Origin: Diplonema papillatum
Lineage: Eukaryota; Euglenozoa; Diplonemea; Diplonemida; Diplonemidae
Length of the DNA stretch: 64,000 nt
Direction of reading: 5' to 3'
NCBI GenBank assembly: GCA_030068145.1
Contig: JAPJBO010000754.1
Location: 47,938 to 111,937, forward strand
Positions 3,370 through 40,288 of this stretch are shown here, in pieces. The position numbers and the translations under genes are program-made. The stretch's first letter is position 1. Every line of letters starts with the position of its first letter. The notes under the pieces are model-generated. The model worked only from the letters and a program-made list of their open reading frames with translations. It searched no databases and was not told where the DNA came from.

Positions 3370-5049
3370 CTAGACTTTACACCCGATGAGGCGGTTTTCC
3401 GCTGGGTGCGGGGACGCAAGCTTTCGGTGGCGGCTCTCGGCCGTGCTGTTGTCGTGGAAGACATCCAGCGTCACCCACCCAGTCGTGACGTGTCGAGCCA
3501 GCAGGACGCCAAGAATCGCCGTCACCAGCTCGCGCCGCCGAATCGGCGTCGGAGGAGCCAGCCGATCCTTCCATCTCCAGCTCTCGCGAGCGAGGACGGT
3601 CCGTCGCGTCGGGTCCAGGACGACCACCCCACCCCCCCGGTCGGATGCGTCCGTCCAGACGTGCACTCGCCGCGCTGGGCGCCTGACTCTGCGGGGGGAA
3701 GCGTCCCCCAGCCAGCGATCACCAGCTTCCAGCTCCGCGAGCAGCTCCTGCGGGAGCTCCACGAGCGTGTCCCAGTCGCGGTAGGTGAGGCACCTGCCAC
3801 TCACCAGTCGGCTCGCACGCAGCAGCCCGGGATACGCCGCCGCCGGGGACCTCATGACGTACAGTGCCCAGCGCAGGCACCCGATACGCTGTGCCAGGGC
3901 CCGGAAGGACGTCACGCGTTGCGGCTTGTTCGCGCGGCAGACTGCTGCCCATTCCCGCGGGATCGCGATCGTCTTTGTAGCTAGGTCCAGATCCAGACCG
4001 TTGAAGGTACCGACTTGCGAGGGGCCTTGCGCCTTATCCTCCCGGATCTGGATCCTGGTGTCGGCAAGCACGGCCCTCAGGCTCCGCTCGTCCCGGACGA
4101 CGTCGGACCTTGTCCAGCCCCCGTAGGCTATGTCGTCGTAGATCGCCAGACTGCGGCTTCCGATGCCGGCCAGTCGGCGGACCCCCAGGGTCGTCAGCTG
4201 GGCGATCGCCGGCGCGCGCGCAATGCCCGGGACGGCTATCCGGAAGACGTAGTACGCGTTGGCCGCCCTAAACCCCAGGTAGTCCGCCAGCGCGTCGGAC
4301 ACCGGAAGCTGGTAGAAGTAGCCCAGCAGGTCTAGGGTCGCGAACCAAGCGTGGTCCAGGACGAAGCCCTCCACATCCCTGAGCGACGGGGTGATGGGGG
4401 ACAGCGGTTGGGAGGTGCGGCTGTCAAAGGGCCTGCCATCGATCAGCAGACGGGTCTCTTCCTTCCCCTTTTTCGGGATTTTGAACACCTTCAGAGTGAT
4501 CCGCGGCCTCTTTTCGACTCTCCTAACGACGCCACTCTGCAGCATCACCGCCAGGTCGGCCTCGGTGATGTCCGAGCTCGGTGGAGCGTGGTGCCTCTCG
4601 TGCGAGAGGAGCATGGGCTCTCGCGTCAGCTGGCGCAGGACGCGAATCTCGTCCTCCCACAGGCCTCGCTCGACCTTCCCGTAGTCGGCCTTTGTGACCG
4701 GCATGGTGTCGATGGGCCCGCGGGACGTTCTGTACACCGGGCTCGGTGCCTTCGTGTACGTCCTCGATGCCAGTTCCGATAGCGCCTCTTCCTGAGCCCG
4801 AACCCCTTCGACGTGCGTGCTCACGTCCCCGCGCAGCAGCCAGTCTTCCAAGGTCACCGCCCTGTCGAAGTCGGCCTCGCTCTGCTCGCCCATGTCGCCC
4901 CGTAACCGGCTTTCCCCCCATGCGAGCAGGCGGTCCAGATACCCGGCTGCCCCGGGATGGCGGCTGTTTGCCCAGTCCCGCAGGGGATGCGAGCTCTTCA
5001 GGTCCTGTGCGTACTCGGGGCAGAACGTGCTCGTCCTGGCCGCACCCTT
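3370..5049 (-). CDS. YR element 1: reverse transcriptase / RNase H
   Basis: About 559 residues from the recombinase stop; no ATG at the junction, frame -1 relative to the recombinase. RT motif A is ATLDLLGYFYQL and the catalytic box is LAIYDDIAYGG (DD intact). An RNase H-like domain follows with HVWTDASDRGGG (first Asp), RRRELVTA (Glu) and DVFHDNSTAES (Asp). The last part expected of RNase H, with a terminal Asp, is missing: the frame ends ...AENRLIGCKV. This is consistent with a truncated or frame-damaged 3' end. Confidence 0.88.
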   Translation of the reverse strand, partial: KGAARTSTFCPEYAQDLKSSHPLRDWANSRHPGAAGYLDRLLAWGESRLRGDMGEQSEADFDRAVTLEDWLLRGDVSTHVEGVRAQEEALSELASRTYTKAPSPVYRTSRGPIDTMPVTKADYGKVERGLWEDEIRVLRQLTREPMLLSHERHHAPPSSDITEADLAVMLQSGVVRRVEKRPRITLKVFKIPKKGKEETRLLIDGRPFDSRTSQPLSPITPSLRDVEGFVLDHAWFATLDLLGYFYQLPVSDALADYLGFRAANAYYVFRIAVPGIARAPAIAQLTTLGVRRLAGIGSRSLAIYDDIAYGGWTRSDVVRDERSLRAVLADTRIQIREDKAQGPSQVGTFNGLDLDLATKTIAIPREWAAVCRANKPQRVTSFRALAQRIGCLRWALYVMRSPAAAYPGLLRASRLVSGRCLTYRDWDTLVELPQELLAELEAGDRWLGDASPRRVRRPARRVHVWTDASDRGGGVVVLDPTRRTVLARESWRWKDRLAPPTPIRRRELVTAILGVLLARHVTTGWVTLDVFHDNSTAESRHRKLASPHPAENRLIGCKV

Positions 5050-13300: not shown

Positions 13301-16300
13301 GGAAGGACACCCCGTTGATGATCTCGATCAAGCTATTGCGCGCGACGTCGACGGAGAACGCCGGATCCAGCGAGATGCCTGCGGGTTTGCGGGGAAATGG
13401 ACAAATTCTTCCCATGCCAGTGTCTTCACAGCGTTGCTTTTTTGGCACGAAGGAAAAACTAGCGTGGCGTGACCGAGTTTCGACCAAGTTCCATCGCCAT
13501 CACGGAACCACAAGGCACAGCCAAACGTGTTTGTGCACACCTCCTTCATTCCTGCTTTGTTCATCTGACGGGAGTGATGATAGTACGCTGCCATCGATCG
13601 GTTTTTGTTCTTGAGAAGAAAAAAGAAGAAAAAGGCTCCTTACTGAGGACGGATGTCATCAGCACAAAGGTCCCAATGTGAAATGTGCCCTTAGGGGACT
13701 AGTCCCACTTGGAAATTGTTACCTTGACTTTTGTCAGGGAAATGCACTTAGCAGATTTTGAGCAAATTTTGGAAATTTTCATTTTTTCCAGATTTTTCCA
13801 GATTTTGGCCATTTTTGCCGATTTTTCCAGATTTTTGCAGATTTTTGCAGATTTTTGCGATAACCAGTAACCACCTTCGTGAGCACTTGTTACAGCTAAA
13901 AAGGAACGTTGGCAGCGGTTTAACCTGAACGCGCACAGGTCAAATCGCACAAACAAAAATTGGGCGCTCGTGCCGAAACATATTTACTAAAATGTCCGTG
14001 GACCTGAAGACGTTCGACTGGGCTCCGGTGCCGATCCTCATCGCACCTGAAGGATGGGTGCCTGCTGACGAGGACGTCGACTGCTGCATGGATTGCGGCC
14101 GAGTCCACGTCAAAGGCGCGTTCTGCGCCCGCTGCGGAAAGAGGGGTAACGAGACCTGCTTGAAAGCCAGCTTGCCTAAAGAGGTGGCTGTGCGAGTCGT
14201 CGAAGGGTTGGCGGAGGACGGCTGGATTTGTCCAGCTTGTCTGGTGTCAATACACCAAACGGGCGCTAACCTACAAGAGGAAAGAAAGAAGAAACCCGAG
14301 GATCTTGATCCTGCCGAGTTTCCCGCCCCGGGGCCTGACGCCCTGTTTGCAGCCCTCGAGGAGGGACCTGTCAAGACGGCGGTTCTCGCCTTGGCCGAGC
14401 AAGTCCGCCTGCAGAACCGTCTCCTGTTGGAGCCCGCCGTGCCCTCGGACCCCATCGACCCTCGCCGAGTCATTACTTGGTTGGGTTACTTAGCTACTCC
14501 ACAAGGGAGGCAGCTAGTGCTTACAGAGGTGAAGCAGCGGTACGGGTATAGCGAGATACCGGAAAGTCCGCACGAGAAGGCCACCGCTATGGACCATGAA
14601 CGCCGAGTCCACTTTAGCACCTTGGGGGCCCTGCTCGGTATGGCCGATGGTTCTCCCACTGTGCTCCGGGTCTTGCACCAGTTGGTGGTACGCCTCGAAG
14701 GGCTGCGGCTGCGGGCCTCACACGGGTTAGAGCACCAGGTGGCGTGGGAAACACGCTTTGCCCCTATGGAGCACGAACTTTTCTCGAGGACGGCTTTAGT
14801 CCTAGGAAACAAGCTCCTCGCGGAGCTCGCAAAAAAGGAGAGCAGGGAGAGGCTTCCTCCCGCCAAGAGGCCGAGGAATTGAACCGCGGAGGGCGGATCG
14901 GCACTCCCAGAAGGCCTCTGGAAGGAAGCGATGGTCGAGGCCCGACCTCGCAAACAGGATTTTGCCGTCTCCGATCAAGATCGGTTGCGGAAGGACCGCC
15001 AGGCCCTTCTACAGACGATGCGGAGGTGCTACAAGAGCACTCCCGTCATGCTGTCTGTGATGAGTCGTGCGCAGAGGTACGCCGAGCAGGCTCGCTGCTT
15101 CGATCCCACTCTGTCGGACGAAGCGGCCTTCTTGATGTGGGTGAACCGCAAGCTGGCCTCGGGCCAAATCAAGGCCGACTCCGCCCTGCAGTACATGACG
15201 TACTTCCGGATGTCCCGAATCGACTGGCTCGGGGCGTACCGGCGCTCGGTCATGCTCGAGATGACCCAGTTCGAGGATCGTCGGTCTCGCGACGCCGGGA
15301 GGACGCCTACGAAGGAGGAGATCCTGCGTGTGGTCTCCCGCGAAAGCGGCGTGCTCTCGATGGCGCTGCGGCTCCAGTGGTCCACAGCGTGCCGGTTCGT
15401 GGACTTGCAACGACTGAAGTTAGACCACATGTGGTCTGTGGGAGCGAACCAGGTCATGATCCTGTTCGTTGGAGGGAAGACAGATCCTACCTCGAGAGGA
15501 CAGGGTCTGCTAATTCCCCGGAGCGGTCCCTTCCTGACGAATTTCTGGCAGTGGATTGCGCTCCAAACCCAGGGTTTGGGCACGAAGGAATGGGTGTTCC
15601 CCGGCCTGTCGCGACAGGCGTACAACAACTTTCTCCAGGAGAGGTTGGGGGTGCCCTCACATCGAGTCAGGCATGCGGCTCTGACCCGGGTGGCCCAGGT
15701 GGAAGGCGAGCGGTCGGCGATGAACGTGGGTCGGCATCTGAACCCCCGCACCACCCGTCGTTACACTCCCCATCATCTCTGGCTGCCAGTTCAGGAGACG
15801 ATTTCGGGCACGGCTGCCCTGCAGGCCGAGTGAGCTCGAGCCACTTAACCGATGTCCCGCCTAGACCTGGCCTGTGGCCTCGCCATCTGGATAAGGTCCT
15901 TCAGGGCTACGATTACGCCTCCGGGTGGCTTGATGCCAGCAGTGGCAAGCGGGTAACGAAGGCGTCGTACGAGGGCGAGATTGCTGCTACGGCACCGACG
16001 TTCGATCATGAGGCTCTGCTGCGCGACTTCCCCGCTCTTTGGGTTAACATGAAGTGGTTGCTAGATCCTGGGTTCATACAGAGCAGTCTCCAACCCGGTG
16101 TGGGTGTAGTCGGTCCCGGACCGAGAAATGTGCGGATGAAGCCTCACTTTGAACGCTTGATGGAGTTGGAGATTGTTGAGCCCATTCCCAAGGCGGCTTC
16201 ATCGCGCTGGTTCCATGGGGCTTTCACTGTCGACAAGCGGGATCCAGGCCAGCTGCGCTTCATCCTGAGCTGTCAGTCGCTCAATCGAGCTACGGCGCAC

Positions 16301-19300
16301 GTGCCTCTGCCATCCTGCGATCTGCCGAGTTACGCTACAGTAGTTACGACCGTTTTGTCCCGGAAGTGGGTTACAGAATTCGACTTCCGGTCGTTCTTTT
16401 TCCAGTTCTCTCTGCCACCAGAGGTGAGGAAGTATTTCTGTTTCAGAATTGACACACGGCTACTCTGGATGACACGTCTCCCCATGGGATATCGGGGCGC
16501 ACCGCAGGCGGCTCAGGCGGTTTCACTGGCGCTGGGAAGGAACTCAGTCCAGGGTCTGGACGTTGATGTCTTGGCGTGGATTGACAACGTGTTCTTTGCT
16601 GGGGATACAGAGGCGAGTGTTGTTGAGGCATCGGCTCGATTCATGGCGTTGGTATCAAGGTACGGTTTTACGATCGGCCGATCCTCTGGGCCGGTACAGA
16701 GAGCGACTCTGCTGGGGTTGGATTTTGACCTGATTGCTAAGAGGTGGCGTATTGACCCCGCATGGGTAACGAAGGTTACGCCCCTCATGGCGCAGATTGT
16801 TGCATTGCAGGAGGCGCCCGTGCGTATATGGTGGAAGCTCACCGGCTCGCTGTTGTGGCGTCGACACGTGATGGCTTTCCCGCTTCATGAGGTTCTCACT
16901 CTTTTGCGGTGGATGTCGGACCTGGCCTCGGGAAGTTCTTCATACGACAATTCGTTTTGGGACTCAGTATCCACTTGTCCGCCGTCGGTGAGGGAGGGCC
17001 TCGTGAGTCAATTTAACGAGCTGCAGGATAATGCTTGGCGGTGTTGGTCCTTACCGTCATACTCCAACTCCCGTGACATGGTAAGCGATGCCAGCATGTC
17101 AGCGTGGGCATTCGTCACTGAGGGTCAGTTCGCCTACGGGCCCTTTCCCGAGGAGCTGATGGACGGTGACATTTTCTTGAAGGAGTTATACGCAGTAGTT
17201 CGGGCTGTCTGCTATGCAGTGCGGTGCAGCACCAACACCCGCATCAAGCTCCTCTGCGACAACAAAGCTGTGATAGGGTGCGTGCGCCGTGGATACACCC
17301 TTCGACTGGAGGCCATGCGCTGGATCACGGTGATAAACTGGGTACTCTCCGTCTCCAGTAGCCGCCTGGACGTCCTATACGTCCCTTCAGAGCTAAATGC
17401 AGCTGACCAGTTCACGAGACTGGATTGATGTTTAGTGCTGACGATCAACAGACCGCTTTGTCGAGCCCTCGTCGAGCAGGGTTGATTCTTTCTCCGCGTG
17501 GCATACAGCTACCACGGTAGCAGTCAACGTTTTGAAACAGTCTTTTATCGGATACAAATATTTTCCTTTCCTTTTGAGGGAGGGAGGGGGGAACAAATAG
17601 GGGCCGCTCGTGCTCCGGTGCCTGTTCCTTTTTTGCGATAACCAGTAACCACCTTAGTGAGCATACTTGTTACAGCTAAAAAGGAACGTTGGCAGCGGTT
17701 TAACCTGAACGCGCACAGGTCAAATCGCACAAACAAAAATTGGGCGCTCGTGCCATTTCATGGCAACACAATGGCCAAAGTCGCCAAAAATCTGGAAAAA
17801 TCGGCAGAAATGGCCAAAATCTGCCAAAATCTGGAAAAATCGGCAAAAATGGTCAAAATCTGGAAAATCTGGAAAAATCGGCAAAAAATGGCCAAAATCT
17901 GCCAAAATCTGGAAAAATCGGCAAAAATGGCCAAAATCTGGAAAACCCTGGAAAAATCGGCCAAGATGGCCAAATTCTGGAAAAATCGGCAAAAATGGCC
18001 AAAATCTGGCAAAATCGGCCAAAATTGGCCAAAATCCGAAAAATCCGAAAATCTGAAAATTTCAGAAAATTTGCTAAAAATTTGCTAAGTACACTTCCCT
18101 GGCAAAAAGTCCAATGAAATTGTTTGCCCTTAGGGGACTAGTCCCCTAAGGGCACATTTTCATTGGGAAGTACTGGGAAATGCACTTAGCAACTTTTTTG
18201 CAAATTCTTACCAGGAATTGTAATGCAAAATAGGGACTAGTCCCCTAAGGGCACATTGCACATTGGGACTAGTCCCCTAAGGCACTTTTCCCAATTGAAA
18301 AATATGTTGGACACAAAATCCTTGTCTGTCGACCACAGACCTAAAACACGGATCTCTAAAACTCGAAACAGTCGAAAATCAATGGAACCCCCCACGCAAA
18401 GTCCAACATTGCCGCCCCCCCTCCGAAGACTTAAAGAATGCAGAGCCGCGGAGCGGTCTATAGATAGATAAACGCACCGGAATCTTCGAGCTTCAGCAGC
18501 GGCCCCTTTTCGAGGTACTCTAGCACCATGAAGAGTTTGTCGTCCTCTGCATCGTCGATGACTTCGTACAGTTGGACGATGTTGCGGTGCTGGATCTTCT
18601 TCAAAAGCGCGAGTTCGCGCAATACGTTGTCCATCGCCGAGGAGCCCGCGGAAGACCGCTTCTTCTTCAGGATCGACTTCTTCATGATCTTCATCGCCCG
18701 CACCTCGTCGTTGTCGTTGTCGATGACGAGCTTCACCTTCGAGTACGCGCCCTTCCCCAGGTCTCCGATGACGGAGTACTGATTCACCGTCTTGTTCCCG
18801 TCATCGTCCGACCCTGTCCGTCGGGTCGCCGTTTCGCGAACGCTGTGTGGCATTGGGCGAGTGCGGCCGGGGGATTGTAAGAACGTGCTTGCAATGGGTG
18901 GAGCGTGCTCAACGCCGCACAGTGTCTCTCGGGTCGATCATCGTATATTGTCCCATCTGCATCGTGCTTCGGTCCTCGAAGCCACGAACACAGATGATGA
19001 CGTCAGCGCGGCCGGCACCAAGCACAGGCCCGGCGCCCTTCACAGAACTTATTACCGCAAGGACGTTTGGCACGTCCTCGACAGTGCAGATGTCCAGCTC
19101 CAACCGGTGACCGGGATTGACTTCGAGGACACGAGCGGGTATTTTGAAGTACAACAGCTGGACCACAGGACAGCGGTGTGAGTCTGTAGCTCGTCACAGC
19201 CAGGACCAACCTTGCTACCAACGCACAGAAAATCCGTCTTTGGGAGAAGGCCGCTACCGTGTCTGAGAAAACAGTTTAAAAACTCAGGCGCTCGCCCTAC

Positions 19301-37296: not shown

Positions 37297-40188
<2,892 letters not shown>

Positions 40189-40288
40189 GTCGGCGAACTG
40201 CACCACGTTGGGTCCTGGAGCACGAAGCGAGAACGCCTTCGGGTTGGAAGCGGTTGCTGCGCAGCTAGATCGTCCGCGGCACCTACGC

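Follow-up and report, generated by a model that had tools for sequence, protein, structure and literature searches.

The window, by which we mean the whole stretch of DNA that was analysed, is 64,000 nucleotides long and belongs to a 271 Mb eukaryotic assembly, the one genome from which every family of tyrosine recombinase (YR) elements in our comparison was taken. One such element, of the family that we call A, spans approximately positions 13852–17754. It carries a single pair of terminal direct repeats of about 108–124 bp, one at each end. The left repeat (13852–13974, forward strand), which coincides with the left ends of other family A copies, shows 97–100% identity to the right repeat (17630–17754, forward strand), and nine other family A copies stop at approximately 17737–17739.

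The gag-like ORF (13992–14882, forward strand) runs from the ATG at 13992 to a TGA stop at 14880–14882, and encodes a protein of 296 amino acids with a Cys/His-rich N-terminus and a basic C-terminus ending in KRPRN. A Pfam search with this ORF gave no match; the name ‘gag’ is suggested by its position and by its conservation, the protein being 57% identical to that of family B and 51% to that of family C. The YR frame follows directly (14883–15833, forward strand; 316 codons, stop TGA at 15831–15833). An earlier note on this DNA had claimed that gag and YR share a frame with one intervening TGA, and that 16 open codons separate this TGA from the next in-frame ATG at 14931. The coordinates confirm both claims, and we refer to the 16 codons (14883–14930, forward strand) as the linker.

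The pol frame is the -1 frame, open over 14618–17428 on the forward strand with its TGA stop at 17426. It begins upstream of the slippery heptamer described below, spans all of YR and continues through the reverse transcriptase (RT). The conserved portion of pol (15875–17425, forward strand) is marked by identity between families A and B in the -1 frame and by a Pfam RVT_1 match (E 4.5e-8); it probably also contains an RNase H, judging by position. RVT_1 is the sole Pfam match in pol (15845–17425) and a methyltransferase was not found there, a search that a very divergent domain could escape. A gap separates the pol stop (17428) from the start of the right repeat (17630). We classify the element as a YR retrotransposon (DIRS order) that has all of its YR ahead of the RT, inside the open pol frame, and in which no methyltransferase was found.

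The surroundings of the element have some features of their own. Inverted-repeat arms (13670–13706 and 18233–18269, 97% complementary) flank it, as do short tandem repeats with a period of approximately 10 nt that are mutually reverse complementary. These inverted repeats lie outside the element, and among the first 28 loci fetched (L001–L028) the sequence upstream of 13840 aligns solely with the window's own locus. The YR element looks like a central insertion into a palindromic or foldback element (13670–18269). A Pfam search of seven other large ORFs revealed no second YR element in the window. A segment on the reverse strand (3751–4485), within a 986-codon ORF that has no Pfam match, is 27.6% identical to the RT of the element (E 6e-8) and is possibly another retroelement. 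A 969-codon ORF with Kelch repeats (37300–40206, reverse strand; Pfam E 1.7e-43) is perhaps an ordinary host gene.

Relatives of the element were collected from searches of the same genome. From the places listed, a part amounting to 68 loci was fetched for diversity, L001 being the window locus, and eight families were defined (A, B, C, D, G, H, I and J), with some listed fragments left out. Each family is represented by a single copy; the gag of the D representative is broken, as is the pol of the G and H representatives further downstream. The YR proteins of the eight families are 33–81% identical. Families A–D form one cluster and I and J another, neither cluster providing mutually independent representatives, while G and H stand apart. 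Beyond this genome no relatives turned up, either in viral contigs scanned with the RT protein, the YR protein or an alignment of six families, or in one scan of genome contigs.

The assignment of the recombinase leans on its conserved positions. Columns R, K, HxxR, H and Y are invariant in all eight families, and we take these to be the catalytic residues. Pfam Phage_integrase matches fall below the cut-off in A (E 0.0088) and G (E 8.1e-4), and the YR of family H has no match to this model. A PDB sequence search with a YR profile returned only chance matches, and a structure model from the single YR sequence was too poor for use (pLDDT 39.6). The RT frame is conserved in families B, C, G and H; the fetched I and J loci end early.

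The earlier note had asked whether the TGA at the end of gag is conserved between copies, and had argued that the element looks young and that the TGA is unlikely to be a product of decay. The complete 2,409-nt query has at least seven further matches at 99–100% in the genome, which indicates a young family, and the TGA is kept in the relatives. Among 65 readable junctions from the 68 loci, one of which holds two junctions (L009), 64 read TGA and one CGA; the exception is a damaged family B copy (L045). Four loci lack a readable junction, as they contain gag only (L015), have no YR match (L034) or carry a deletion (L043 and L056). The note had named TAA or TAG codons, frame changes and extra stops as signs against its reading. 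We found no TAA and no TAG, and the frame damage that does occur is in decayed copies, e.g. L012, L047, L052 and L060, where nearby indels shift the TGA out of the YR frame. In a family I locus (L056, C794:22000–24400) an in-frame deletion of 21 nt removes the TGA and creates a gag-YR frame of 640 codons.

Gag, TGA and YR lie in a single frame, with pol in the -1 frame, in all eight families fetched. That said, the identity of the TGA alone is weak evidence, since YR itself terminates with TGA in six of the eight families. Nor is the shared frame of gag and YR independent evidence, because the continuity of pol in the -1 frame would fix the frame of YR relative to gag in any case. We have accordingly rejected the shared frame as a proof of readthrough.

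Across YR, none of the eight representatives has a single stop in the -1 frame. Synonymous shuffles lead us to expect 6.6 in A, 6.4 in B, 5.7 in C, 6.8 in D, 7.0 in G, 6.3 in H, 10.1 in I and 8.75 in J (P from 0.0014 to 0/4000 shuffles), and in the six families computed the +1 frame across YR has the expected number of stops. The avoidance can be seen at the level of single codons: none of the 499 YR codons that would make a -1 stop by ending in T does so, compared with 324 of 2004 other YR codons. In a set of 12 further B and C loci, all 12 keep the -1 frame open over YR. Among further copies with -1 stops in YR, L058 has one where 7.7 are expected and the truncated L067 has three where 5.2 are expected.

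Could the composition of these sequences produce the same result? In gag upstream of the heptamer, the number of -1 stops is somewhat low in C and G and close to chance in A, B and H. T is also in short supply at comparable gag codons (53/519 versus 262/1651, P 0.0013, seven families pooled). This mild sequence bias is real, yet it cannot account for the complete absence of -1 stops in YR.

The -1 product itself is poorly conserved over YR, with 33–58% identity per block between A and B, whereas from window position 15875, at the RT, 35 of 37 residues are identical. AUGs in the -1 frame occur within the YR/pol overlap; between the TGA and the last of them there are no stops where 3.8–5.9 are expected (P 0.0007–0.0091, six families). 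The simplest reading is that ribosomes would enter pol at the end of gag, by -1 slippage, and traverse YR in the other frame.

A site at which such slippage could occur lies near the end of gag. All eight representatives have an X XXY YYZ heptamer, in the phase for -1 frameshifting and ahead of the open -1 frame, at 7–58 nt upstream of the UGA. In the window element this is A AAA AAG at 14831–14837 (forward strand). The heptamer is AAAAAAG in A–D, H and J, AAAAAAC in I and GGGAAAC in G, and the distance from its start to the TGA is 49 nt in A, I and J, 58 nt in B, C and D, 22 nt in G and 7 nt in H. An in-phase heptamer is present at 59 of the 65 junctions, the six without one being L012, L033, L044, L063, L065 and L067. 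Two of these (L063 and L065, on C656 and C75) belong to a subfamily of J with a stop in the gag tail, no heptamer and a kept TGA; the YR stays open throughout in L063 and over the fetched part in L065.

In the five families tested, shuffles of codon order gave P values of 0.004–0.019 for finding a heptamer within the final 66 nt of gag, and stricter synonymous shuffles, in which the residues stay in place, gave 0.03–0.12; the set of accepted heptamers behind these values was drawn up after AAAAAAG had already been seen. The amino acids at the site differ in I and J (PKN and AKK), and the heptamer is still kept in both. The earlier note therefore described half of the system: its UGA stands, but it overlooked the heptamer at 14831 and the -1 frame at 14618–17426.

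How, then, is the recombinase made? The codons behind the UGA are informative. In the linker, families A and C differ at a far larger proportion of synonymous than of nonsynonymous sites (pS 0.83, pN 0.22, Fisher P 0.0003), and the comparison of A with B agrees (Fisher P 0.0012). Thus the purifying selection that the earlier note had proposed to look for in the gag frame of these 16 codons is present in both comparisons. A versus D gives P 0.052; B–C, B–D and C–D are not significant, nor is I–J over codons 1–20. The codons between the TGA and the ATG at 14931 in family A appear to evolve as protein. In six families the first in-frame ATG of YR comes late, at codon 57 in B, 60 in C, 54 in G, 53 in H, 79 in I and 37 in J, and upstream of this first Met lie 10 (B, C, G and H), 21 (I) or 5 (J) columns that are identical in at least six of the eight families.

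The foremost alternative is termination at the gag UGA followed by reinitiation, either at an AUG close by (14931 in A) or at a near-cognate codon, which would yield YR as a separate protein. Some families offer suitable starts: the ATG of A lies 48 nt past the stop and has a G at -3 and at +4, D carries an ATG at codon 11, and CTG or other near-cognate codons occur in the linkers of B, C, G and H. However, an early ATG of this kind is the minority case, the in-frame ATGs of A and D (codons 17 and 11) preceding any of those in B, C, G, H and I (codons 53–79) or in J. Furthermore, the selected LP-GLW codons of A precede the ATG, and neither an AUG nor a one-base variant of AUG was found ahead of them. 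The linker would then be translated only through UGA readthrough or from some undetected start. Readthrough would explain the conserved codons ahead of the ATG, which reinitiation leaves unexplained, at least in A, and we regard reinitiation as unlikely. Because these codons are conserved as protein, UGA readthrough appears to be the best explanation for the window family. This was the interpretation favoured by the earlier note, and the kept TGA, the protein-like evolution of the linker and the late ATGs of six families all speak for it.

A second alternative concerns pol rather than YR. The gag UGA overlaps a potential start codon in the -1 frame (NUGA), so that reinitiation by stop-start coupling might open pol, and UGA would be kept for this purpose. 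There is something to be said for this idea. UGA is the only stop with which an NTG overlap is possible, the -1 frame is open from the overlap onward, and in G (L029:1330–1333) and D (L032:1011–1014) the overlap reads ATGA, as in stop-start coupled genes. Elsewhere the start would have to be a GTG (B, C, H, I and J) or a TTG (A), which are poor eukaryotic starts. The coupling also leaves the in-phase heptamer of all eight families unexplained and gives no route to YR. We consider it improbable that pol is expressed in this way.

Splicing could make recoding unnecessary, if a small or alternative intron excised the UGA or joined gag to pol. A potential donor GT runs into the stop codon of B, C, H, I and J (GTGA; in B as AG|GTGAGG), and GTAAAG occurs at -69 and -78 in I and J. 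However, A has just one GT in the last 120 nt of gag (GTCCTA, at -81) and D has none adjoining the stop, so that no donor is common to all families, as judged with a pattern that is blind to -1 sites. A spliced gag-pol would, in addition, have no need of a stop-free -1 frame across YR. Splicing was judged very unlikely. Decoding of the UGA as selenocysteine, or its reassignment in the host, would suit an in-frame UGA between two coding parts, but we give it almost no credence, as the YR (15831) and pol (17426) of the same element terminate with TGA, and the six matches that Rfam gives over 13500–18300 (up to E 5) include no SECIS and nothing else of relevance.

RNA structure at the junction gives a mixed picture. 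Behind the heptamer, where a stimulatory element would be expected, folding does not stand out in any of A, B, C, D, G and H (z -1.76 to +1.08), and a consensus fold of A–D is unconvincing, with an unfavourable covariation term (+1.62) and a compensating change in 4 of 32 pairs. A scan of these six families for H-type pseudoknots gave a match in A only (P 0.007, 150 shuffles) and none in B, C, D, G or H. The candidate lies at 14845–14872 (forward strand), 7 nt 3′ of the heptamer, with stem 1 at 14845–14849/14857–14861 and stem 2 at 14851–14856/14867–14872. A strong stem-loop around the UGA has a z-score of -3.07 in J and is shared by I at -0.95; within its two main helices 87.5% of the cells are paired, and compensating changes occur at two pairs, a number not above that in shuffles with two sequences. 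The earlier note had proposed to look for conserved downstream bases or a stem-loop. With a pseudoknot in A and a shared stem-loop in I and J, no general stimulatory RNA is established for either frameshifting or readthrough.

A few further observations were made on the bases next to the stop. I and J differ little at synonymous sites over the first 20 codons after the TGA (L054:978–1037 and L057:858–917), with pS 0.31 compared with 0.60–0.69 beyond, which hints at an RNA element in this region; a test of codon identity behind the TGA in the same two families was not significant (P 0.39). H, I and J have a C directly after the UGA (CUAG in J), and the other five families, A, B, C, D and G, have an A or a G. 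UGA followed by C, or by CUAG, is a leaky stop context.

We consider it likely that these elements use dual recoding at a single gag terminus, with a -1 frameshift leading to pol and UGA readthrough leading to YR. Most ribosomes would terminate at the gag UGA and release Gag. A fraction would slip by -1 on the X XXY YYZ heptamer shortly before it and bypass the UGA; these ribosomes would read the whole YR region in the -1 frame, as a poorly conserved spacer, and produce a Gag-spacer-RT fusion. Another fraction would keep the frame, read through the UGA and produce a Gag-YR fusion. What the sequences show is the ORF layout and its conservation in eight families, the avoidance of -1 stops across YR, the in-phase heptamers and the protein-level selection behind the UGA in the window family. 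That the elements really use frameshifting and readthrough, at what rates, and that particles make use of the fusions is inferred.

A little more guardedly, we suggest that the gag terminus acts as a three-way switch between stopping, slipping by -1 and reading through, one that has been kept down to a recombinase identity of 33%. The full YR/pol overlap would be the price of this switch, since a slipped ribosome must traverse the YR gene in the other frame.

How does this compare with known systems? Frameshifting by -1 and readthrough are each already known, and it is their proposed use in YR retrotransposons that would be new. No recoding signals in such elements are described in the literature surveyed, which is mostly free of subscription papers and includes the available parts of PMC3783388, PMC12440569 and PMC8310308. 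The DIRS1-like elements, i.e. DIRS-1 of Dictyostelium and its relatives, likewise have gag, YR and pol and may have an extensive YR/pol overlap; in the accessible text of PMC3266345 the overlap is long in half of 28 annotated elements. The DIRS1-like elements also have a methyltransferase, internal complementary regions and terminal repeats that are inverted. In that source the second ORF is YR and the third is pol, and the catalytic YR lies in the non-overlapping 3′ end, and the portion of PMC5633606 available gives ORF2 as RT/RH/MT overlapping ORF3, the YR. In contrast, the window element has its entire YR ahead of the RT domain, within the open pol frame, and a methyltransferase was not found. 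The available parts of these two papers state no mode of translation for the overlapping enzymes.

The PAT group (PAT, TOC3 and Kangaroo) resembles the window element in being YR retrotransposons with direct-repeat ends, and PAT-like elements are reported from Chlamydomonas and relatives in the part of PMC8226300 available. In Kangaroo of Volvox, according to the accessible text of PMC4157794, the YR is inverted and internal repeats lie between the MT and the YR, neither of which we see in the window element. The PAT group has split direct repeats (A1-B1-A2-B2); of such repeats the window element has shown one pair, at its two ends. The gene set of gag-like, YR and RT/RH is shared with the VIPER/TATE elements of kinetoplastids, which have three ORFs, except that TATE copies of B. 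saltans hold all three genes in one ORF; no UGA readthrough or frameshift signal is described for them in the sections of PMC6681497 available. Ngaro and VIPER lack a methyltransferase, as given in the accessible part of PMC3266345.

A similar arrangement outside the YR elements is that of Tca2, an LTR element of Candida albicans, with an in-frame UGA between gag and the downstream gene, pol; no frameshift branch is described for it in the available text of PMC2194720. In a yeast reporter, 300 nt of the Tca2 junction gave no readthrough (PMC2194720, same portion), which is in our view the most serious caution. Tca2 also shows that promoter activity can be mistaken for readthrough. Retroviruses extend gag by a slippery heptamer, as in the -1 frameshifting of MMTV, or by stop readthrough, as in MuLV, and in the accessible parts of PMC5009743 these are alternatives in different viruses. 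The window element would differ in having both signals side by side at one gag end, leading to different enzymes in overlapping frames.

If the proposed model is correct, then the recombinase and the polymerase are carried by different Gag fusions, and the rate of each is set separately. The YR/pol overlap would be a consequence of decoding and not an oddity, and the same logic of a switch may account for the YR/pol overlaps of other DIRS elements. The model also makes a simple prediction: a heptamer and a UGA should be found at the gag end of every DIRS, PAT, Ngaro and VIPER element.
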